IMG/VR virus record: IMGVR_UViG_3300044610_000003 | Span: 1 to 20,107 of that record | Direction: 5' to 3' (one strand) | Length of the DNA stretch: 20,107 nt | From: a virus | Shown: positions 2,136 to 20,107 of the stretch, piece by piece | Numbering within the stretch: the stretch's first letter is position 1 | Layout of the letters: each line of letters starts with the position of its first letter | Program-made: the position numbers and the translations under genes | Notes under the pieces: model-generated | What the model saw: the letters and a program-made list of their open reading frames with translations, nothing else | Database searches by the model: none | Told to the model about the DNA's origin: nothing

Positions 2136-3536
2136 ATGGGAATCCTAGACATTTTCAAGCGGAAACAAACGCAAAACAACGAAGCAAACACGTTGTTTGG
2201 GCAGACCGCGCTAGGTAACAACGTCGTCTATCAGGGCGACAACCGCAGGCCGACGGTCAATACGCAGATTCTGTATGTCACCACGAGTGCCGTTACAGAT
2301 GCAGGGCGGGTGGTGGATGTATCCACGCTGTCCCGAAATAGCACGGTGATGGCAGCACTTGGCGCAAAAGCCCGCGCCTTGAGTCAATTGCCCATCAAGA
2401 TCATGTGCGAGTTGGACGACGGCACGGTGGTCGATGCGGTCAAGGATTCTCGGGTATCCACCCGGAACAAAACCAAGGCCCAACAAGTTCTGACCCTGCT
2501 ACAGAACCCCAATCAGTTCCAAAGCCAATATGAGTTTTGGTATCAGTGGATGATGTGGCACGACCTTTTGGGCGAAGCCTTCACGCTTTGGTGGCGCAAG
2601 GATCAAAAGAATCCTACGCAGACGCCCACCGAGATGTTCATTCTCGATTCGACGCTGATCGCGGTCACGCTCACCCCGACCCGCTACCCGTCCTATCGCC
2701 TAAGCACGCCTAGCTACGGCTTCAGCAAGGATCAACCGCTAGAGTATTACCAAGTCATGCACTGCAAGGATATGCCTTGGCAGGGTTCGGCAGGCTTCAA
2801 CAAGGGCATCCTTGCGGTGGAGTTGGTCGGTCTAGATCAGGACATCGACCTATACGCCAACTACGTTATGCAGAACGGCGCGAAGCCCTCCGGAATGTTC
2901 GTCACCGAGTCGGTCATTCCTGACGCCAAGTACAAAGAGATTGCGGCGCGGCTCAAGGAAGCATGGTCGAGCATGACGGGAAGCCGGACCACCGACCCGT
3001 CCAAGCCTGGCCAAGGGATGCTGCTCGATCAGGGCATGAAGTACGAACCCCTGAAGATGCTTTCCCTGCAAGACGCCGACGCTGCGGCGTTAAAGCTCCA
3101 AACCATGAAGCGGATTTGCGGATTGTTTGGCGTGCCCCCGGCGATGATTGGGATCGCGGACGGGAAGTACAACAACACTCAAACGATGTTGGACGAATTC
3201 TACAAATCCACGATGTACCCGATCATCGTGAACGTCCGTCAGAAGCTCAAGCAACATTTACTAGCGGGCTACCCCTCACTGTGCGTAGAATTTGACACGC
3301 AGCAATTCCTTATGGGCGCACCGCTAGACCAAATGAATTATGTGGTGGCGGGCGTAAATGCAGGCATACTTACGCCCAACGAGGCGCGGGAATACCTCGG
3401 TAGGCACACAATGGACGGGGCTAGTGAGTTGGTCGGCAAGAACAGCGATCAAAAGCCCATTCCTGGCAGTTCACCACAAGACACGGGCGGCGGCGGCGGG
3501 AATCAGACCCGACGCATGAACATCGGCACAACTTGA
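2136..3536 (+). CDS. Portal protein (HK97-type)
   Basis: 466-residue protein expected to form the dodecameric ring at the capsid vertex through which DNA enters and leaves. It starts with MGILDIFKRK, typical of this family. Later it has the SLQDADAAALKLQTMKRICGLFGVPP region, with FGVPPAMIG from about residue 331, and GILTPNEAREYLG at about 410-422; both are hallmarks of HK97/phage_portal proteins. The C-terminus ends in a Gly-rich, polar tail (GGGGG near residue 453), which is normally disordered. It lies 24 bases after the large terminase gene, with a purine-rich GGAAACGGGGG stretch in the gap serving as a ribosome-binding site. The length is usual and the gene appears complete. Confidence 0.95.
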   Translation: MGILDIFKRKQTQNNEANTLFGQTALGNNVVYQGDNRRPTVNTQILYVTTSAVTDAGRVVDVSTLSRNSTVMAALGAKARALSQLPIKIMCELDDGTVVDAVKDSRVSTRNKTKAQQVLTLLQNPNQFQSQYEFWYQWMMWHDLLGEAFTLWWRKDQKNPTQTPTEMFILDSTLIAVTLTPTRYPSYRLSTPSYGFSKDQPLEYYQVMHCKDMPWQGSAGFNKGILAVELVGLDQDIDLYANYVMQNGAKPSGMFVTESVIPDAKYKEIAARLKEAWSSMTGSRTTDPSKPGQGMLLDQGMKYEPLKMLSLQDADAAALKLQTMKRICGLFGVPPAMIGIADGKYNNTQTMLDEFYKSTMYPIIVNVRQKLKQHLLAGYPSLCVEFDTQQFLMGAPLDQMNYVVAGVNAGILTPNEAREYLGRHTMDGASELVGKNSDQKPIPGSSPQDTGGGGGNQTRRMNIGTT

Positions 3537-3542
3537 CCAAAT

Positions 3543-3761
3543 ATGGCAGTTCACGCAAAATTGTTAGCGGCACTTGCAAACCAAGTGCGTCGGCCTGCGG
3601 AATTGCCAATTCAGGTTCCGCGCCTGATGTCCCCGAAAATACAAGACATAAACACGACGGTCTTTGAAGGGGTCATCAATGAAACAAATCCAACTGATCT
3701 GCGAAGCAAAACTGGTTCTACCCGAGGCGGCAGGAAACCAAGAGCCAAGCGGAAAGATTGA
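3543..3761 (+). CDS. Doubtful small ORF between portal and protease
   Basis: 72-codon ORF starting six bases after the portal stop. I do not recognise the product. Its N-terminus looks amphipathic (MAVHAKLLAALANQV) and its end is strongly basic (RGGRKPRAKRKD). For it: it fills a gap of about 140 bases in an otherwise tightly packed operon. Against it: there is no clear Shine-Dalgarno before its ATG, and its last 83 bases overlap the well-supported protease gene in another frame. It may be a small head protein, a remnant, or a chance ORF in a leader for the protease gene. Confidence 0.3.
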   Translation: MAVHAKLLAALANQVRRPAELPIQVPRLMSPKIQDINTTVFEGVINETNPTDLRSKTGSTRGGRKPRAKRKD

Positions 3762-4473
3762 AGCCACCGTCACCACTTGGGGACCGCGTGAGGGCGCTGA
3801 TGGTCGGCGCTTCTATTACAAGCCGGAAGGCTTTATGCAGTGGGCTAAGGAATTCGCTGACACCAAGCGACCGCTGCCCATGTTTGTCAATCACAACGCC
3901 GATGCAATGCCGGTGGGTGAGTGGACTGCATTCGAATTCACTGACAAGGGCATGATGGCCGAGGGCCGTCTGTACCTGAACACCACTCAAGGGTCTGATC
4001 TGTATCAAGTGATGACCGAATCCCCGGCTATGTTCGGCGGTGTCTCTGTAGGAGCATACGCAGATGAATACTGTATGGTCGATGCTGAAGGCAATCCCCT
4101 CCAAAGCGGTAGCGACATGGAGGAAGGTTATTTCCAAATTTCGCAAGGCGGACTCAGAGAAGTCTCCGTCGTAATGCATCCCAACAACCCGATGGCAGAG
4201 GTTCACAAGTTGGAATTCTTCCGACCTGATGGCTCTGCTGATCTCAAGATTTTGGAGAAGGCTCTGCGTGAAGCAGGGCTGTCCAAGAAAGATGCGGTCG
4301 CTGCCGCATCTACCTTCAAGAAAGTGTTGGAGCAGCGTGAGGTTGTGACGACCGTTCTTGAAATTGCGCCGACTCAGGGTGAGCCTGATGCGGAAGCGAC
4401 CGAAGCCGAATTGCTTGCTGCTCTTGAGCAGCGGGAAATTCTTAAGCATCTTTCCAATCGTCTGAAAGGCTGA
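3679..4473 (+). CDS. Prohead maturation protease (peptidase U35-like)
   Basis: 264-residue serine protease expected to assemble inside the prohead, cleave the capsid delta domain and then itself. Family motifs are visible: H72 in FVNHN, S123 in GGVSVGA, and LREVSVVMHPNNP at about residues 159-171 with E161; these are the likely catalytic residues by analogy with HK97 gp4. The basic fold ends near residue 180. The remaining 80 residues are charged and helical, a plausible scaffold-like tail. The ATG at 3679 is preferred over an in-frame TTG at 3664 because AAGGGG at 3667-3672 lies six bases upstream of it. The gene sits between portal and capsid, its standard place. Confidence 0.9.
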   Translation: MKQIQLICEAKLVLPEAAGNQEPSGKIEATVTTWGPREGADGRRFYYKPEGFMQWAKEFADTKRPLPMFVNHNADAMPVGEWTAFEFTDKGMMAEGRLYLNTTQGSDLYQVMTESPAMFGGVSVGAYADEYCMVDAEGNPLQSGSDMEEGYFQISQGGLREVSVVMHPNNPMAEVHKLEFFRPDGSADLKILEKALREAGLSKKDAVAAASTFKKVLEQREVVTTVLEIAPTQGEPDAEATEAELLAALEQREILKHLSNRLKG

Positions 4474-4475
4474 TC

Positions 4476-5819
4476 ATGTCTAAAGAAATCATCGAAAAGT
4501 TGGACGCAATCGAAGCGTCTACCCTTGCCAAAGCTGAAGAAATCGCAGCCAAGGCTAACGAGTCGGTCGAAGCTGCCAAGGCTGAACTGACCGAGAAGGT
4601 CGCCACCTTGGAAGCCAAGGTCGCAAGCCTGAACGCTCCCGCCCTAATTCGTCCCATCGCCAAGTCTGTGCGTCAGGATGTGAACCGTGCGGTGCGTGAG
4701 CAACTGAAAGAGTACGCAAACAGCGGCAAGAGTTTCGAGAAAGAACTCAAGATGTTCGCTGACGAGTCTCAGTATTACGCGTACATGAACGAAGCCTCGC
4801 AACTGACCGCAGGCGGCGATGGCAAGGGTGGTCGTACCGCATACGATCCCGTGTTCGTGTCTTTGCGTTTGTATAACCCGCTGCGCGGCCTGTCGCGTAC
4901 CGTGGCTACTGAAGGTTCTTCGTACCAATTTCGAACAAAAGTAGGGAACGCGGGCGTACAGTGGGGGTATGCGATTCAGAACAACGGCGCAGCCACTACT
5001 GAAAACACCTCCATTTGGCAACTGGTGTTGAAGGACATCAACGTCCAATTCCCGATCCGTACTGCCGCACTCGACGACATCGACGGTTTGGAAGCGAACG
5101 TGGTGGACGATATGCTTGCCGAATTCGCGCAAGCCGAAGCCCTGTCCATGATCATCAACGACGATCAGACCGGCACGGGCACTTCGGTGACCACTGGCGG
5201 CGCTGATGGTCTGCGTGGTTTGGATCAGTACGGTGGTGCAAATTCCACCTACACGGGCGGTACGACCTCTACGGCTGCATTCGGTTCGTCGGGCACTTCC
5301 TCGACCTCCGGCCTGCACTCCCTGGCAACGTATGACCAATTGACCACGAACGGCTTTGCAAGCACGAACAACGTGACTTTCCAAGACATCGTGAACATGG
5401 TCTATGCGCTGCCGCAGCAGTATTGGACGAAGGATGCCAAGTGGATGATCAACAACGTCATGTTGTCGGCCATCCGTGGTTTGAAGGACAACCAAGGCAC
5501 GCCGATTTTCGAGCGTATGCACCCCGCTGCCGAAGACGGCATTGTGGGCAAGCTGCTCGGCTTCGATGTGGTGACCAACTCTTATGTTGACACCCCCACC
5601 GCTGCCGGTGCTTCCGCAGGCACGGTCGCCAAGTACCCGATGTACTTTGCTGACTGGTCGCGCTTCCATACCATCGTTGATCGACTCAACATGGTTATGC
5701 GGAGATTCGACCAAACCGCCCCCGGATTTATAACATTTTTCGGGGAAAAGCGGCTTTGCACGAGCGTTCGTGATCCCTTCGCAGGGGTTCGCTATCGCTC
5801 GACCGCTACGGGCGCTTAA
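4476..5819 (+). CDS. Major capsid protein 1 (HK97 fold, with delta domain)
   Basis: 447-residue capsid subunit. Residues 1-105 are an Ala/Glu/Lys-rich coiled coil, the expected delta scaffold removed by the protease; the shell-forming part begins near EASQLTAGGDGKGGR (106-120). The body contains WGYAIQNN (163-170), SIWQL (179-183) and GADGLRGL (242-249). It ends with PGFITFFGEKR and SVRDPFAGVR, typical of HK97-like P-domain and C-terminal regions. The start follows the protease stop by two bases, with AAAGG at about 4465-4469. It is followed by a strong terminator, consistent with a highly expressed, separately bounded message. The same fold recurs in the next gene. The exact cleavage site is inferred only. 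Confidence 0.93.
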   Translation: MSKEIIEKLDAIEASTLAKAEEIAAKANESVEAAKAELTEKVATLEAKVASLNAPALIRPIAKSVRQDVNRAVREQLKEYANSGKSFEKELKMFADESQYYAYMNEASQLTAGGDGKGGRTAYDPVFVSLRLYNPLRGLSRTVATEGSSYQFRTKVGNAGVQWGYAIQNNGAATTENTSIWQLVLKDINVQFPIRTAALDDIDGLEANVVDDMLAEFAQAEALSMIINDDQTGTGTSVTTGGADGLRGLDQYGGANSTYTGGTTSTAAFGSSGTSSTSGLHSLATYDQLTTNGFASTNNVTFQDIVNMVYALPQQYWTKDAKWMINNVMLSAIRGLKDNQGTPIFERMHPAAEDGIVGKLLGFDVVTNSYVDTPTAAGASAGTVAKYPMYFADWSRFHTIVDRLNMVMRRFDQTAPGFITFFGEKRLCTSVRDPFAGVRYRSTATGA

Positions 5820-5825
5820 TAAAGT

Positions 5826-5849
5826 GGGGGGCTTCGGCTCCCCTCTTTT
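5826..5849 (+). terminator. Rho-independent terminator between the capsid genes
   Basis: A perfect seven-pair stem (GGGGGGC at 5826-5832 with GCTCCCC at 5837-5843, one G-U pair) is capped by a TTCG tetraloop closed by a C-G pair, the very stable cUUCGg form. A T-rich run TCTTTT follows at 5844-5849. It begins six bases after the first capsid stop codon. It probably ends or attenuates transcription there, limiting read-through into the second capsid gene and the neck and tail genes, or it protects the 3' end of the capsid message. Confidence 0.88.
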
Positions 5850-5912
5850 CAAAGGGATTCATTGAGTCTCTTTGAAAGGGATTTCGGGCGCACTTTGCAA
5901 AGGACTACGCCA

Positions 5913-6941
5913 ATGGACAAGCAACAAAGCACGGTAACTGAACTGCTGTTGAACGGCATCAAGTCTGCCATCCAAGAAAACCGCCAAGTCAAGGTGGACA
6001 TCTCTGAAGCCTCGGCGCTTACAGGCTCCGGCTCGGGCATTGGTGGTCGCGTCATCTTTGACGACGCCTTCGCTGCTCTGCGTTACGCAAACCCCTTCCG
6101 TCAGGGCGCACGCATTCGGGACTGCGAAGGTTCCGATATGCAGTTCGTTGCCAAGACGGGTAACGCCACCAACCAAGCGGGCAACCCTTGGGGCTATGCG
6201 GTGCAGAACAACCTTGGCTCTCCCGACACGAACACGACCATTTGGCAGCTTCCCGTGCGCGTCGTTGCTGCGCGTCTGCCGATTCGCTCGGCTGTCCTGT
6301 CGGATGTGAACAACCTTGACGCCACGCTTGTCGAAGACCTGATGCTTGAGTTTGCCCAACTTGAAGGCGCAAGCATGGCGGTCAACTCCGACCAAGCCGG
6401 TTCGACCACGACCACCACGGGCGCAACCGATGGTCTGCGTGGGTTGAATATGTACCTCGACGGTGCAGCATCGGCCTACGGCACCTCGGGCACGGCGATC
6501 ACCAACGGCATCCACACGATTGCCACGCAAACGGCTACGACCGCGATTGCCTACAACGACATCACCGCTGCGGCTTCCAAGCTGCCCGGTCAGTATTGGT
6601 CGCTTCCCGGCACGGCATGGCACATCGCTCCGGCGACCATCGAACTGCTGCGCGAACTCAAGGACACCAACAACCTCCCAATCTTCCTCGAAACGGGTGA
6701 CGATGACGGCGGTGCGGTGGCGCACATCTTCGGTTGGCCTGTGATCCCGAATCCTTACCTGTCGGCAACGTACCCGATCTACCTTGCCAATTGGCCGCGC
6801 TTCCTGACGATCTGCGACCATACCGAATTCAGCATTCAAATGATGGAACAGACGCTGCCCGGTTTCGTGACCATGTATGCTGAAAAGCGCGTGGTTAGCT
6901 CTGTGCGCGACCCGTTCGCAGGGGTGCGGATCAAGCTGTAA
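5913..6941 (+). CDS. Second capsid protein, paralogue of capsid protein 1
   Basis: 342-residue HK97-fold protein related to the preceding gene along its length. Matching blocks include EASALTGSGSGIGGR (residues 32-46), WGYAVQNN (93-100), TIWQLPV (109-115), DGLRGL (173-178), PGFVTMYAEKR (316-326) and the identical SVRDPFAGVR (330-339). It lacks the coiled-coil delta domain: homology begins exactly where mature capsid protein 1 should start, preceded by only about 31 residues. It could be a pentamer/vertex protein like T4 gp24, a second shell subunit, or an alternative form. The ATG at 5913 has AAAGGA at 5899-5904. A TTG at 5862 with AAAGGG at 5851-5856 would add 17 residues and cannot be excluded. 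GGGG-rich read-through past the upstream terminator is needed unless a promoter lies between. Confidence 0.88.
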   Translation: MDKQQSTVTELLLNGIKSAIQENRQVKVDISEASALTGSGSGIGGRVIFDDAFAALRYANPFRQGARIRDCEGSDMQFVAKTGNATNQAGNPWGYAVQNNLGSPDTNTTIWQLPVRVVAARLPIRSAVLSDVNNLDATLVEDLMLEFAQLEGASMAVNSDQAGSTTTTTGATDGLRGLNMYLDGAASAYGTSGTAITNGIHTIATQTATTAIAYNDITAAASKLPGQYWSLPGTAWHIAPATIELLRELKDTNNLPIFLETGDDDGGAVAHIFGWPVIPNPYLSATYPIYLANWPRFLTICDHTEFSIQMMEQTLPGFVTMYAEKRVVSSVRDPFAGVRIKL

Positions 6942-6950
6942 GGGGTTGCC

Positions 6951-7637
6951 ATGTCAGTCAACAACTATCTGACGTATGGGGGTCCGGCGCTTGCGCCGAC
7001 CCGCAACCCTTTCAACTACGCGAAGTTTGAGCAGATTGACCGCGACAACGTGACGCCTTGGCTCACGCTTGAGGAAATCACTCAACAGCTAAACCTGTTC
7101 AACGACGAGTCTCAAGACACCTACCTGTCGATGCTTGAGGTTGCGACCCGTCAGGCAATTGAGGACTTGATCGGTCTGCCGATCATGCCGATCAGCTATC
7201 GGGTGTACTACAACGCGAGCAGTCTGTACGGCGTACCTCTGTCGCTTGACTTGCCCGAGGTAAGCCAAGGAAGCACGGGCGGTTGCTACAACGGCAACAA
7301 CGGAGTAGTGATTGACCGGGTAGGGTATTGGAACGACGACACGCCTTCGGTGTTCGTGCCTCTTACTGCAAGTCAGTATATGTACGACAACTCGGGCAAC
7401 AAGGTAATCCTTGCTGACCTCCCGAGCGACCTCAACGTGTTTATGACCTCTCCGGTGGTCTGCGAATACACGGTGCAGCCTAGCCCCTTGGCGGCGTATC
7501 CCGTCATCAAGCAGGCCGGTCTGCTCTTGCTCACTCACCTCTACAACAACCGCAGCAACAGCACCGAGGGAATGCTTCGTGACATCCCCTTCGGCGTGAC
7601 TGCTCTCTTGCGGCCTTACAAGCCTTTGGTGATGTAA
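6951..7637 (+). CDS. Head-tail connector (gp6 / phiE125 gp8-like)
   Basis: 228-residue protein expected to form the ring under the portal in the neck. The segment WLTLEEITQQLNL (about residues 37-49) followed by DESQDTYLSMLEVATRQAIEDLIGLPI is typical of the head-tail connector family: an N-terminal pair of helices followed by the characteristic ATRQAIEDLIG helix. The C-terminal half has KQAGLLLLTHLYNNR, also usual near the end of this family. Position after capsid genes and before the head-closure gene fits. AAGGGG lies just upstream of the start, and the gene ends immediately before the next start. Confidence 0.85.
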   Translation: MSVNNYLTYGGPALAPTRNPFNYAKFEQIDRDNVTPWLTLEEITQQLNLFNDESQDTYLSMLEVATRQAIEDLIGLPIMPISYRVYYNASSLYGVPLSLDLPEVSQGSTGGCYNGNNGVVIDRVGYWNDDTPSVFVPLTASQYMYDNSGNKVILADLPSDLNVFMTSPVVCEYTVQPSPLAAYPVIKQAGLLLLTHLYNNRSNSTEGMLRDIPFGVTALLRPYKPLVM

Positions 7638-13280: not shown

Positions 13281-13930
13281 CCACCACGATGACCGCGCTT
13301 AACAGCGCAAACATCCGACACGCCGAATTCGTCAAGCTGTCAGTTGGCAATCCCGCATCGCCAACCGTCTACACCTTCTGCAACGCTGCTGCTCCCGTGA
13401 CGGTCAGCGGCATCACCTTTAGTTCGCTCGGGGCGCTGTTGGCTGTCGGTGAAGTGCAGCGGGATGTCAAGGCAACCTCGTTTGATATGTCGATCTCTTT
13501 GACCGGCATTGACCCGAACTACGTTGCTCTGATTCTCTCAAGCGACATCAAGGGCAGCACCGTAGAGGTTTGGCGCGGCTTCCTTGACTCTGACAATCAA
13601 ATCATCACCACGCCGACGCTTCAATTCTTCAAGCGGTGGCAAGGCATCATCAACAACGTCAACATTACAGAAGACTTCAACGAGCAGATGCGGCAGCGCG
13701 TGGCGACTTGCAACATCACTTGCTCAAGCATGAGGCGGGTGCTAGAAAACCGCCTTGCAGGCATCAAGACCAACAAGACCATTTGGCAGTCGATCTACCC
13801 CGGCGACACCTCCATGAGCCGAGTCGATGCCATCTCAAACACCTACTTTGACTTCGGCGGCAAGCCCAACACGGGCAGCATTTCAGAGCCGGGTGGCGGT
13901 CAAGAGATACCGGAGACACAACAAAATTGA
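13277..13930 (+). CDS. Tail tip/hub protein (L-like position, DUF2163-like)
   Basis: 217-residue protein in the place of lambda gpL, which joins tube and tip. Sequence features include FVKLSVGNPASPTVYTFCN near the start, EVWRGFLDSDNQIITTP (about residues 97-113), and FKRWQGIINNVNITEDF. Cysteines near residues 148-152 (ATCNITCSS) are suggestive of the metal-binding cysteines of some L-type proteins, but I see no full four-cysteine set. The arrangement resembles DUF2163-type tail-hub proteins, a weak family call. It ends TTGA-overlapped with the acetyltransferase start. Confidence 0.58.
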   Translation: MTTTMTALNSANIRHAEFVKLSVGNPASPTVYTFCNAAAPVTVSGITFSSLGALLAVGEVQRDVKATSFDMSISLTGIDPNYVALILSSDIKGSTVEVWRGFLDSDNQIITTPTLQFFKRWQGIINNVNITEDFNEQMRQRVATCNITCSSMRRVLENRLAGIKTNKTIWQSIYPGDTSMSRVDAISNTYFDFGGKPNTGSISEPGGGQEIPETQQN

Positions 13931-14373
13931 TCCGCGAAGCATCCAAGTTTGATCTAGACGCTTGCGTTGAGATGATGCGTAAGTACGCATCAGAGTCGCC
14001 CATTTTCAAACTTCGGCAAGCTGCGTTTCACGACAACTATTATGTAAGGCACTTCCTGTTTAGTTTGATCTGCGGTCGCGGGTTCATCTTTGTTGACAGT
14101 CAATATCGAGGAATGATTGCCGCCATCGTCACGCCAAATATTTGGTGCCCCGGCGTGCATGAGGTTAAAGAGTTGGCATGGTGGGTTGACCCCGCGCACC
14201 GAGATGGAACAATCGGCGGCAAGTTGTTTGTTGCCTACAAGGTCAAGGCCGAAAAGCTGATCAAGGAAGGTCGGGCGCAGGTTATGAGCGTGTCGCTTAT
14301 GGCTAACAGCCCATCAATTGATTTAGAGGGTCGCGGGTTCAAGCGGATTGAGTCCACCTTCTGCAAGGAATAG
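13927..14373 (+). CDS. GNAT-family N-acetyltransferase
   Basis: 148-residue protein resembling GNAT acyltransferases, which move an acetyl group from acetyl-CoA to an amine. It shows [16 protein letters not shown] at the start, the typical beta1-alpha1 opening, then a central [23 protein letters not shown] (residues 79-101) as motif A. Its pyrophosphate loop is RDGTIG, with Thr95 where the usual R-x-x-G-x-G/A has the first glycine. The C-terminal [13 protein letters not shown] is the expected motif B end. TTG 13927 overlaps the preceding stop as TTGA. It occupies the slot of lambda K and I in the tail operon; its substrate is unknown. It may modify a tail or host-surface component (inference). 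Confidence 0.85.
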
Positions 14374-14375
14374 AA

Positions 14376-17300
14376 ATGCCCGGTTCAATCATTCTTGCTC
14401 AAATCGGTATTACTGCTGCAAGTATTGGTGCGACGGCATACGCCGCGACCGTTTTTGCAATCAACTTTGCCGTTTCTTACACAGTGACTCGGGTGTTTGG
14501 CGCGAAGCCCCCGCGTCAGCAGGACAACGGCGTAAGGCAGCAGATTCCCCCAAGCGCAGACAACTCTATCCCTGTCGTCTATGGCGACGCATGGATGGGC
14601 GGCACCTTCGTTGATGCGGTGCTTACCACCGACAACCAAGCGATGTACTACGTCTTGGCGATCAGCAACATCTCGCCAAACGGTCAGTTCACTTTCGACA
14701 CTACGCAGTTTTATTACGGTGATCGGCTTATCACGTTTGCGCCGGGGACCAACCAAGTTGCCTCTTTGACTGACGGCGCGGGTAACGTCGATACAAAGAT
14801 CAACGGCTACCTCTACATCAATCTGTACACCTCGACCGCATCGGGAACCATTACAACCGTTCTCGGCACTGCGCCGAATGTTGCAATGGGTGGCGTAGAC
14901 ATCCCCGCCGCGCTTCGGTGGCCTGCCTCGGGTCGGCAGATGAACGGGCTTGCATTTGCAATCGTCTATCTAAAGTATTCGACCGATGCGGGTTCGACCG
15001 GCTTGCAGCCTCTGACCTTTAGGGTCAAGCACGCATTGAACGGCACCGGCGTTGCAAAGCCCGGCTCTGTACTCAAAGACTATCTGACCAACACGGTCTA
15101 TGGTGGCGCGGTGCCTTTGGCAAACGTCAACACCACGGCTTGCGACGACCTTGATACCTACTCAGACCAAACGATCACCTACACGCCATCGGGCGGCGGT
15201 TCAGCAACTCAGGCGCGGTATCGGATAAACGGCGTCATTGATACGGGCGAAACCGTACTCAACAACATCGAAAACGTACTGATTGCTTGCGACTCGTGGA
15301 TTGGCTATCAAGCTGAGTCGGGGCAGTGGGCACCCATCATCAACAAGGCAGAGTCCACGGGCTTTGCGTTTGATGACACCAACATCATTGGCGACATTCG
15401 GGTATCGGCCACCGACATCACATCAAGCATCAATCAGGTTGAGTTGTCGTTTCCTTGGAAAGACAACAAAGACAAACCCGGCTATGTCTTCCTTGATCTA
15501 GCGGCACTCAATCCTTCGCTGCTTTATCCGAATGAGCCGATGAACAAGTACACCGCGACCCTAAGCATGGTCAATGACTCTGTTCAGGCGCAGTACCTTG
15601 GCAATCGAATGTTGGAGCAGGCCCGCGAAGACCTGATCGTTTCATTCAACACGGCATACACCGGCATTCAGGTCAACGCAGGCGACGTGGTTAGCGTAAC
15701 CAATGCAGCCTACGGTTGGACGAACAAGCTGTTCCGCGTCATTAAGGTCAACGAAGCAAGTCTGCCGGACGGCAACCTTGGTGCGCGTTTTGAACTGAGC
15801 GAGTACAACGCATCGGTATACGACGATATGCCGATCACGGCATTCGCGCCTGCGCCCAACTCTGACCTTCAATCCGGGTATTACTTCCCGGCACTAGCAG
15901 CGCCTACTTTTAGCGATCAGCAGCCTGCTCTGTCGCCCCCGACATTTAGCGTCACCTGTCAATTGCCAAGCACGGTGCGGGTCACAAGCGTAACTCTGTA
16001 CTACACCAAATCGGCCACTCCCTCAATAACCGATTGGGATGTGTGGAGCGTTCAAACGCCGATCAATGAAGCAGTGTTTCCTGCCGGTTCGGCAATCAAA
16101 TTTAGCAACGTCATTGTTGGCTCGGGCACCTACTACTTTGCTTTTGCGATCAGCAATGAGATTGCCACATCGCAGAAGTCCACAACTTCAGCTTCGTTCT
16201 CTTGGGCACCGATTGTTTCTTCGCTAATCGCTACGTCTTGGTCACCTGTTGTGATTCAAGTGCCGCGAACCGGCGGCGTGCCAAGTTTCACAAACATCAA
16301 CCCTCAGCTTTATTTGACGTTCGGCGGCGTTCAGGTCAACTTTGTCACATCGCAAACTGACACCGATCCTGCTTTTGTAAACAACACTTGGCGCATTGGC
16401 AATTCGTCCACCACCGGGAATGGTGACATCACCACCACGGGCGGTCTTGTGATGGGCGCTATCACAGACGGTGGCACTTATGCGCGGTGGGGCGACCCCA
16501 CGGCCATGACAAGCTCGCCTGCGCTGTTGTCTGTTCCTGCTCGATACAAGGACAACACGGGCATCGTTTATCAAACCGCGTTCAACTCCTTGCAGTTCAT
16601 CTTTTTGGATGCGGGTATCGTCGGCCCGACTGGGCCTACAGGCAACTTGGGGCCAACAGGAAGCCAAGGCCCAACAGGCATAACAGGCCCGACAGGCAAT
16701 CAAGGTCCAACTGGCACGCAAGGCCCAACCGGCATAACTGGGCCAACCGGAACACAAGGCCCAACTGGCACGCAAGGTCCGACAGGGACAACTGGGCCGA
16801 CCGGCATAACGGGGCCAACAGGCAACACCGGCGCAACGGGCAATCAATATGCAATTGCGTATTTGTATCAATGGTCGCCCACGCAGCCCGGCAACCCGTC
16901 GGGAACTTCGACGTATGTTTGGGCAACCGGCGTAAATACTTCTTACACGGGCGGCAATGGATGGGGCGTGTCTTTGCCATCCAACCCCGGCACTCCCGGC
17001 ATTTATTTGTGGATTGCCGCAAAAGAAGTTGCAGACGTGGGGGGCACTGTTAGCACCACGGTGAATTGGACTAGCGGGTTCAATGTCATCGCTCAGTCTG
17101 CAAATGGCGTAAATGGTCCTACTGGCGCTCCCGGAAGCAAGACGGCGCGTCCTGTTGTTTATCAATGGGCTGTCACACTTCCCGCAGGGCCGACAGGCAC
17201 ATCAACCTATACATGGTCAACGGGAACATTTACTCCGAATCCTGCCGGGTGGAGTTCCACAATTACTGCTTCCCCGTCGGCGGGATTTACGTTGTGGTCT

Positions 17301-18398
17301 GCGACAGCATCAATCATTGATGCCGAAACTGCCACGACCACCACGATCAATTGGACGACGGCGAGTATCGTCGCTGCGGGATATGCGGGAGTCACTGGAC
17401 CAACAGGAGTCACTGGGCCAACAGGCACGGGTACAAATGGCGCATCCTCTCGCATCTGTTTTGCGCGGGTGCCCAACAACCCGGCTCCGGTATCGGGCAA
17501 TATCACCACATCAGGTTCAGCGTCATTCCCTTCGAGCGCACAGTCTCTGTCCACTTGGGGCTTCTCGGCTACTTGGGGCGCGTCTGACCCCAACCCGTCT
17601 AGCACTGATTCGCTGTATCAAAGCGATGGCATCTATGACCCCAACACCGGAAACACGGTGTGGACGACGCCTTACATCTCAAGCCTGAAGGTCGGCACGC
17701 TGTCGGCCATTACGGTCAACACGGGTGCGCTAACGGTTCAAGACATCCTGACACTAAACACCCTTGGCAAGATCAGAGGTGGACAGACAGACTACAACGC
17801 CGGGACAGGTTTTTTCCTTGGCTACAGCGGTGCAGCTTATAAATTCTCAATTGGTTCGTCTACTCAATCTTTGTTGTGGGATGGTACAAGCCTAACAATC
17901 AATGGCAATATTGTTTCTAGCGGAAAAGCAGAATTTGTTGGTAACAATGGCGATTTGCTTGGCACGGCTGTCAAGGCTAATCAGACTGGCGCGGCTGATG
18001 TTGGCGTTGCCGGGTATGCAGGCAGTTCAACTCTTGGGCGCGGCATCAGTGGGTTTGCAAGCGCATCTAGCACAGTTGGCGTGGTTGGTTCAATTAGTTC
18101 ATCTGCGGCGCGTGCGGCCATCTTGGCAAACTGCACAGGCACGGCCACTACGGCGCTAGAAATTGCAGGCGGCAAGATGGTGATTGACAACTCTACATTG
18201 GTTGTCAATCTCAATGCTGATCTACTGGACGGCAAAAATGCTTCGGCTTTTGTTGAGATCGCAAGTGGCGTTACAAATGGTCAGTACATCTACTTTGTAA
18301 ATAACAACACTGCGCCAACTGATCCAAACAATCGAGCTGCTTGGATTCGCTTATCAACAAATGACGGTGGTTACGTCTACTTCCCCGGCTATCTGTGA
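14376..18398 (+). CDS. J-like tail tip protein with collagen segments
   Basis: 1340-residue host-contact protein. Residues 4-40 are hydrophobic ([18 protein letters not shown]), then a tip-attachment core runs to about 488, with a phage-tail type domain from about residue 234 including [17 protein letters not shown] and [11 protein letters not shown]-like sequence. Residues about 527-612 form an Ig/fibronectin-like beta domain. A 25-triplet collagen segment, nearly all GPT plus GxQ/T (residues 750-824), is followed by two related beta repeats (about 824-910 and 923-1004) with short collagen links at 911-922 and 1005-1018. The C-terminal fibre part carries [13 protein letters not shown] (residues 1280-1292), a motif common in tail fibres. 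AAGGAA lies before the ATG. Probably the receptor-binding protein. Confidence 0.88.
16623..16847 (+). repeat. Collagen-like Gly-X-Y run in the tip protein
   Basis: Twenty-five uninterrupted Gly-X-Y triplets, over half of them GPT, alternating with triplets such as GIT, GTQ, GNQ and GTT. At the DNA level this is a 9- to 18-base-period repeat with recurring blocks such as CAAGGCCCAAC. It should form a trimeric collagen-like rod that spaces the core of the tip from the distal domains. Confidence 0.9.
16845..17387 (+). repeat. Two diverged domain repeats in the tip protein
   Basis: Two related segments of about 85 residues lie head to tail. The first reads [25 protein letters not shown], and the second [24 protein letters not shown]. 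Each then has a Trp-containing [13 protein letters not shown] or SPSAGFTLW strand and a '[16 protein letters not shown]' end. A short collagen link [10 protein letters not shown] separates them. This looks like an internal duplication of a small beta domain. Confidence 0.8.
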
Positions 18399-18842: not shown

Positions 18843-19331
18843 ATAGCGATCTTCAACAAGAATACGCTTGCCCAAGTCAGCGGGTTCGACAACCCCATTC
18901 TTGCCGGTGAACTGGTTTGGAACCAAAAGACCTATTGGAATCTTTCGTTCACCAATTGCGCTACCGGCCTGCCGATCCCTCTGACCGGCGCAACGCTTGA
19001 CGCTCAGATCGTCCGGCGACAAGTCAGCAACATTGTAGACACCCGCAACGGTCTGACATTCGACATTGCGGATTACACGCCGACTCCCACGCCGGTCAAC
19101 CTCACGATAAGCAACCGCAATGACGCAGCAGGCACGTTCACGCTTGTCATTGACGATTCCACTTGGTCGCTGATCAACAGCGATCCTCAGCTAGAAATCA
19201 ACGCTCAGGATTGCGTGGGTTTCTCAGGCCGCATCAAGGTTTCCTTCCCCGCTAGTGGCAGCACGCCGCAGGATGATGCAATCATCTTCCTGCTGTTCCT
19301 TGTTCGCTCCGACGGGGTGGTGGTGGTATGA
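18843..19331 (+). CDS. Fibre-associated protein with uncertain start
   Basis: About 162-163 residues if it starts at 18843, where the codon is ATA: the reading begins [26 protein letters not shown]. The sequence strongly suggests an intended start MAIFNK at this point, and AGGG at 18832-18835 lies seven bases upstream. Alternatives are TTG 18819 or GTG 18756 in the same frame, with weaker context and an N-terminus that does not look protein-like. The body is beta-rich, e.g. [21 protein letters not shown] and [20 protein letters not shown], and ends GVVVV. It overlaps the collagen fibre gene by ATGA. Function unknown; probably a fibre or baseplate partner. Confidence 0.75.
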
Positions 19332-20107
19332 GCAACATCAAGGTTGTTGTCCAAGACGGTAACAACGTCAATCTTCAGGTCACTCCCACGCCTGATGTAA
19401 GCGTCAGGCTTGACCGCAGCGTTTCCGGAGCTACGGGACCGACCGGGCCTTCGGGTACTACCGGACCCACCGGGCCTGCCGGAACTGCCGGACCCACGGG
19501 TGCCACGGGTGCCCCCGGTCCTGCGGGTGGGCCTACTGGTCCCACGGGCGCTACGGGCAGCACAGGCTTGACCGGCCCGACTGGCGATGCAGGTCCAACC
19601 GGTCCGACGGGCAGCGCAGGCGCGACAGGCCCAACCGGCGATATGGGGCCAACCGGCGCGACAGGCCCAACCGGTGCACAAGGCGGGCAAGGAACAATCG
19701 GCCCGACCGGCCCGCAGGGTGTTCAGGGCGTCCAAGGCATTCAAGGCGATCATGGGCCTACCGGACCGCAAGGCCCGACCGGACCACAAGGGGTGGCAGG
19801 CCCGACCGGCGCGATTGGCCCTACCGGAGATATTGGACCTACTGGACCGACTGGTACACAGGGCGCTCAAGGCAATATCGGCCCGACCGGACCGCAAGGA
19901 AACCAAGGCATTCAAGGTGACCACGGCCCAACAGGACCACAGGGCGTTACAGGCCCGACCGGAGCGCAGGGAAACGTAGGCGCAACCGGCCCAACTGGCG
20001 CTCAAGGGGACACTGGACCTACGGGACCGCAGGGCGTACAAGGTATTCAGGGTGACCAAGGCGTACCCGGACCGACCGGCCCGATTGGGCCTACAGGTTC
20101 TCAAGGC
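19328..20107 (+). CDS. Collagen-like tail fibre protein (partial)
   Basis: Open to the window edge: 260 codons are visible with no stop. Residues 1-33 ([18 protein letters not shown]...) are a non-collagen N-terminal part, probably the attachment domain. From residue 34 onward the sequence is almost unbroken Gly-X-Y, rich in GPT, GPQ, GAT and GIQGDH/GIQGDQ. A single extra glycine near residue 67 (GPAGGPTG) breaks the phase. Such repeats form trimeric rods that extend receptor-binding tips; the C-terminus that would define the tip is outside the window. Confidence 0.85.
19427..20107 (+). repeat. Long collagen-like Gly-X-Y repeat
   Basis: A run of over 200 Gly-X-Y triplets in-frame with the fibre gene, continuing past the window. 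It is more complex than the repeat in the tip gene: it alternates GPT blocks with GxQ, GAT and GDx triplets. It shares DNA blocks such as GGCCCAACCGG with the tip-gene repeat, giving patches of homology about 2.6 kb apart. Confidence 0.9.

Follow-up and report, generated by a model that had tools for sequence, protein, structure and literature searches.

A delta-less capsid paralogue encoded behind the delta-domain capsid gene in a group of small aquatic tailed phages

How one HK97-fold protein gives rise to both hexamers and pentamers, and how a delta domain steers this choice, is one of the classic problems in phage head assembly. To our knowledge, a dedicated vertex subunit is known mainly from T4. 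In that phage, the pentamers are formed by gp24, a paralogue of the major capsid protein whose gene follows that of gp23 (PMC9958956, PMC3012670); on maturation gp24 loses a propeptide of 10 residues and gp23 one of 65, and gp24-bypass mutations have been located in the A domain of gp23 (PMC9958956). According to the same review, the vertices of other well-studied phages are built from the major capsid protein itself (PMC9958956). The capsid protein of HK97 sheds a piece of ~104 residues (PMC9024508). Two capsid genes have been reported in some phi29-like phages and in Lactococcus phage KSY1, and a duplication has been proposed for KSY1 (PMC11476376).

We analyzed the first 20 kb (20,107 nt, referred to here as the window) of the viral IMG/VR record IMGVR_UViG_3300044610_000003, which encode a tailed-phage structural module (Table 1). 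The S78 protease, whose start codon is uncertain, is the first gene of a head-maturation block and precedes capsid gene A in every relative whose sequence extends far enough. Genes for the tail tube, the tape measure and receptor-type tail proteins lie 3' of the adaptor.

Table 1. Positions of the features discussed in the text, numbered from the first nucleotide of the window
Feature	Position	Strand	Evidence
Small terminase	71-454
TerL	432-2111
Portal	2136-3536
Prohead protease (Peptidase_S78)	3664-4473	+	PF04586, E 4.7e-6; phrog_3244 (head maturation protease), E 1.5e-9
Capsid gene A, 447 aa	4476-5819	+	PF05065, E 3.5e-26; phrog_10, E 3.6e-29
Delta (scaffold) domain of A, residues 1-105	4476-4790	+	No counterpart in B
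Intrinsic-terminator-like hairpin between A and B	5826-5850	+	GGGGGGC-TTCG-GCTCCCC + TCTTTTC
In-frame leader 5' of B, probably untranslated	5862-5912	+	Comparison of relatives
Capsid gene B, 342 aa, no delta domain	5913-6941	+	PF05065, E 1.3e-18
Conserved amphipathic N-terminal helix of B, residues 8-22	5934-5978	+	Alignments; model helix 8-22
Head-tail adaptor (Ad1, gp6-like), directly 3' of B	6951-7637	+	phrog_40, E 2.2e-13; PF05135

Several features of the module are recorded here in their own right. The J-like tail protein (14376-18398) carries collagen-like GPTG repeats at residues ~749-801 (PF01391, E 6.6e-12), and long collagen-like GPTG repeats also occur in the last ORF (19328-20107), which runs off the end. 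Between tail genes, just 5' of the J-like gene, positions 13927-14373 encode a 148-aa protein that looks GNAT-type acetyltransferase-like by eye and gave no Pfam match at E 0.01; a gene of similar size is found at the equivalent position in Methylophilaceae phage P19250A (see below). One relative has ~480 nt extra between protease and A (L120:4482-4958), where the other relatives have none, and in L101 and L136 (B) and in L126 (A), two frames that overlap or adjoin take the place of one capsid gene, through sequencing error or a real frameshift.

Profile searches assigned A to phrog_10, the major head protein, and to PF05065, and the solved structures nearest to it by sequence were those of the Rhodobacter GTA capsid (6tb9/6tba, E 5e-9). 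The ~105 aa before EASQLT are rich in Ala, Glu and Lys, helix-like and coiled-coil-like, and are conserved in all A relatives. A thus has the delta domain of an HK97-type major capsid protein, whereas B begins with ~30 unrelated residues; this restriction of the delta domain to A, already seen in the initial annotation of the window, held in all 39 representative pairs. BLASTP aligned the two proteins with 139 of 345 residues identical (40%, E 2e-74), from MNEASQLT in A and ISEASALT in B to the C-terminus, and with both proteins in PF05065 the pair was confirmed as two tandem HK97-fold paralogues. The homology had been said to start at EASxLT in both proteins, exactly where mature A should begin: the first part is borne out by the alignment, and the coincidence with the mature N-terminus, a predicted cleavage site, is plausible by analogy with HK97. 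The motif SVRDPFAGVR is identical in A and B, and some A relatives read SVRDPNALVR instead, which prompted the idea of a recent gene conversion; the idea was dropped, as DPFAGVR was found in many A lineages.

The mechanical ORF of B runs from a TTG at 5862 to 6941, and the alignment with relatives begins no earlier than about residue 18-24 of that ORF. Since an ATG at 5913 is preceded by a ribosome-binding site (AAAGGA, 5899-5904), the start of B was corrected to that ATG. A Pfam search of B returned PF05065 as the sole family, at 67.9 bits against a curated cut-off of 24.2, and B relatives also scored above it (53.9-69.9). A model of B was predicted with AlphaFold2 from a 59-sequence alignment of the window and IMG/VR loci, with medium confidence (pLDDT 75, pTM 0.73). 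When this model was compared to the PDB by Foldseek, 6tb9, the GTA capsid of Rhodobacter, ranked first (E 5e-17); structures of the HK97 prohead and head matched at E about 1e-14 (prohead 8fqk, E 2.6e-14), and of 349 chains at E <= 1e-3, the 50 listed were all HK97-type capsids. The predicted structure agrees with the original assignment of B as an HK97 subunit. B retains the complete HK97 fold, including the spine and E-loop motifs, and should therefore be able to occupy a lattice position.

The N-terminus of B (~30 residues) is a conserved helix of its own, with the family consensus (T/S)ITEKILxGIKxAI. Its origin as a remnant of the delta domain (EKLDAIEA vs. EKILDGIK) was considered and discarded, since profile comparison of the B N-terminus with the delta domain of A performed no better than shuffled columns (127/300). 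In 13 distinct contigs, B is fused in frame at its N-terminus to a ~100-aa phrog_2859 domain of unknown function (L011:5686-7017, L026:5689-7008 and 11 others, e.g., L013-L019, L028, L029, L075 and L078), matched at E 6e-26 in L011 and about 1e-26 overall and bearing the motif GGTAVGVARARDI...GYPSAGRIAWALWGGDPGK. The fusion is confined to one sub-lineage, the window's own clade, and replaces the leader between the hairpin and B. Inside the fused frame, the usual start of B is still marked by an ATG with a ribosome-binding site, so B may be produced in two forms. The helix, the absence of detectable kinship with the delta domain and these fusions speak against B being simply a "pre-matured" A, as was first suggested. 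In the window, the leader is an open frame whose end (...DFGRTLQRTTPM) recalls that of the phrog_2859 extension (DPGKTWAEKEHAKM); judging from this likeness, the window may derive from the fused form by deletion, with the leader as its remnant.

B followed A in all 158 IMG/VR loci of a first set with room downstream (at least 450 nt 3' of A) and in all 74 loci of a second set; some contigs occur twice across the sets, and the distinct A-B junction sequences number 190. At least 563 stretches in IMG/VR encode relatives of A, and each of 12 near-complete records (35.3-41.1 kb) carries exactly two capsid genes. In the Azospirillum-phage-Cd-like loci, the nearest well-sampled single-capsid family, one capsid gene was present in 79 of 79, consistent with the initial statement that related phages normally encode one. 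Relatives of A with one capsid gene, which had been named as a finding that would point to redundancy, were absent among the 232 A loci, and this argues against redundancy of B.

A tblastn search of 50,697 phage records yielded one B carrier, the isolate Methylophilaceae phage P19250A (KX815270), which infects a Methylophilaceae host. Its gp5 corresponds to A (57% identity) and its gp6 to B (56%), in the same gene block. The former is annotated as "gene transfer agent capsid protein" and the latter as "hypothetical protein", so that a probably abundant family of structural proteins goes unlabelled; no discussion of the pair in P19250A was found in the open-access literature. The marine phage Venkman has been reported to be syntenic with P19250A (PMC8163748). 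Venkman (MT375522) was uninformative for the pair: its head module differs, and its scaffold gene is separate from the single annotated capsid gene. The pair was also present in one MAG contig (Rhodocyclaceae) of a genome collection, which makes betaproteobacterial hosts likely for the group. The pair marks a large, little-studied group of ~35-41 kb tailed phages of lakes and rivers.

A tree was built from 39 A, 39 B and 4 outgroup capsids, in which B formed one clade with a support of 100/100. The free tree nested B in the A lineage beside the window's A; this placement was weakly supported and was set aside, as A forming one clade was not rejected (AU p 0.275). Because B mirrors several subgroups of A, we favour a single duplication that preceded the diversification of the group; A and B are then the products of this old duplication of the major capsid gene, both kept since. 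Distances within A and B were correlated (Mantel r 0.53, 0 of 2000 permutations). B diverges about 1.5 times faster than A, and the median dN/dS was ~0.11 in A and B alike (0.107 in B), indicating equally strong purifying selection.

The hairpin between the two genes is the best terminator-like site of the window. A uniform scan detected a hairpin at 184 of 190 distinct A-B junctions, with stem sequences that vary widely, and at 0-2% of the TerL-portal, portal-protease, protease-A, B-adaptor and adaptor-next-gene junctions; in the shuffled control it occurred in 1 of 300. Among single-capsid controls, a hairpin was present at 7 of 67 Cd-like capsid ends and in 3 of 13 other single-capsid phages, and HK97 is annotated with a putative terminator after gp5, the equivalent position. 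Terminators can thus follow the capsid gene in single-capsid phages as well; the hairpin is not specific to having B, and its interpretation as a B-specific device was weakened, above all by HK97. The notable point is that B always lies beyond the hairpin, a stop after the capsid gene itself being not unusual.

The mean effective codon number was 38.6 for A, 43.8 for B, 47.5 for the connector (adaptor), 47.9 for the portal, 48.6 for the protease and 51.1 for TerL. B was below A in 3 of 39 genomes, the window among them, which reverses the trend with 40.2 for B vs. 44.3 for A, and codon bias was stronger in B than in the portal in 31 of 35 genomes. Taken together, hairpin and codon bias suggest amounts in the order A > B > portal, that is, a copy number of B between those of A and the portal.

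Domain-specific differences between A and B were limited to indels. Three loops of 8, 7 and 8 aa (A residues 254-261, 291-297 and 376-383), defined as filled in >90% of A rows and gapped in >90% of B rows, were present in every A and in no B, mapping after B residues 181, 209 and 285; A also has a four-residue C-terminal tail that is missing in B. From the order of secondary structure and the fold topology of the medium-confidence B model, the three loops are presumed to sit in the A-domain, which occupies the centre of the capsomer. Indels in the E-loop were small, and type II A/B sites were not clearly concentrated in any domain (6 of 135 columns in the A-domain, 4 of 57 in the E-loop).

We propose that B is a minor, co-assembling shell subunit, most likely a pentameric vertex protein that is T4 gp24-like by convergence, a reading to which we give an even chance. 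Co-assembly with A was inferred from the outset, with a vertex subunit, a mixed shell or size control as possible roles; the hairpin, the codon bias and the differences in A-domain loops fit a minor co-assembling role such as that of a vertex subunit. Under this proposal, A would build the hexameric lattice, and its delta domain would scaffold the procapsid and then be cut off, presumably by the S78 protease. B, having no scaffold, would be unable to start a shell and would join one made by A, most likely as pentamers at the eleven non-portal vertices, the job of gp24 in T4. The hairpin would end many A transcripts, and the position of B behind it is proposed to account for its smaller amount. 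Thus A, with longer A-domain loops, would supply the hexamers, and B, with shorter central loops and lower expression, would complete the shell; if T=7 is assumed from genome size and the analogy with HK97 (39.7 kb), 55 subunits of B and 360 of A would be required. Terminator activity of the hairpin, incorporation of B and its place at the vertices are what we infer in this explanation. The broader proposal, that small (~38 kb) HK97-type phages evolved an unscaffolded vertex paralogue independently of T4 and that one lineage carries an additional ~100-aa domain there, is more tentative and falls somewhat short of an even chance.

Among the alternatives, a mixed shell holds up best. B would then share the hexamers with A, either interspersed or confined to one quasi-equivalent position, and would dilute the scaffold domains inside the procapsid and alter stability or DNA capacity. 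Its complete HK97 fold with spine and E-loop motifs would suit such a place, its codon bias is nearer that of a high-copy than of a 12-copy protein, and Family 2B encapsulins co-assemble two HK97 proteins in variable composition (PMC12407261). We nevertheless consider a mixed shell unlikely, although worth serious attention, as the hairpin and the A > B trend in codon bias suggest unequal amounts and the consistent A-domain loop differences suggest different capsomer environments. It is improbable that B is an assembly or size-control factor, acting transiently or in few copies (e.g., beside the portal) and not as a regular subunit of the mature lattice: the complete fold, the strong purifying selection along the whole protein and a codon bias above that of the portal in 31 of 35 genomes together suggest more than a few copies and weigh against such a factor, although B has no scaffold, has its own conserved N-terminal helix and is encoded next to the head-tail adaptor behind the terminator-like hairpin. 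A role in decoration or internal display, on the surface of the shell or inside it and in some phages with extra domains such as phrog_2859, is very improbable; the 13 contigs with a ~100-aa domain on B and the absence of a separate decoration gene between A and the adaptor would agree with it, but the extension occurs in one sub-lineage only, the internal ATG and ribosome-binding site are kept at the ordinary start, and the lattice-forming elements of the fold are retained. It is barely credible that B is a redundant copy or one in decay, or a second capsid reserved for other conditions and not needed beside A: 0 losses in 232 loci, a dN/dS of 0.11, a single ancient origin, the significant correlation of A and B divergence (Mantel r 0.53) and the lack of a scaffold with which B could form a shell by itself all speak against it, even though duplicated capsid genes with later loss were inferred in phi29-like phages, e.g., CpV1 (PMC11476376).

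In these small phages, whose scaffold is integral to the capsid protein, the task of forming hexamers and pentamers seems to be divided between two proteins throughout hundreds of environmental genomes. Should B be the vertex subunit, as we prefer, hexamer and pentamer formation would be genetically separated in a minimal delta-domain capsid, and capsid geometry would be open to study by omitting or tagging one gene. If B is instead mixed into hexamers, the group would offer a natural two-component delta-domain shell.

Family 2B encapsulins resemble the pair in that two distinct HK97-fold shell proteins co-assemble (PMC12407261), but they are bacterial compartments with irregular mixed tiling and not phage heads with a portal, a protease and a packaged genome; unlike an encapsulin operon of that family, the A-B pair is flanked by terminase, portal, protease, adaptor and tail genes. 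The phi29-like phages and KSY1 belong to a different capsid lineage, KSY1 has an elongated head, and a fixed pairing of a delta-bearing with a delta-less protein is not described for them; no description of such a pair was found in the open-access literature, which our search covered. T4 shares the order protease, capsid and paralogue, and a second protein with little or no propeptide. No sequence relation between B and gp24 was detected by hhalign (probability 0.6%, 10 columns), so the resemblance to T4 would be convergent. T4 has separate scaffold proteins and a genome of 169 kb, whereas in this group a delta domain within A serves as scaffold and the genomes measure ~38 kb; A and B share 40% identity, compared to about 20% for gp23 and gp24; and gp24 is known to be at the vertices, whereas the same position is proposed for B. 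HK97 gp5 and Azospirillum phage Cd share with this locus the order portal, protease, capsid with a delta domain of ~100 aa, and adaptor, but phages of the HK97/Cd type use one capsid gene for hexamers and pentamers, whereas in the group described here a delta-less second copy is always present.
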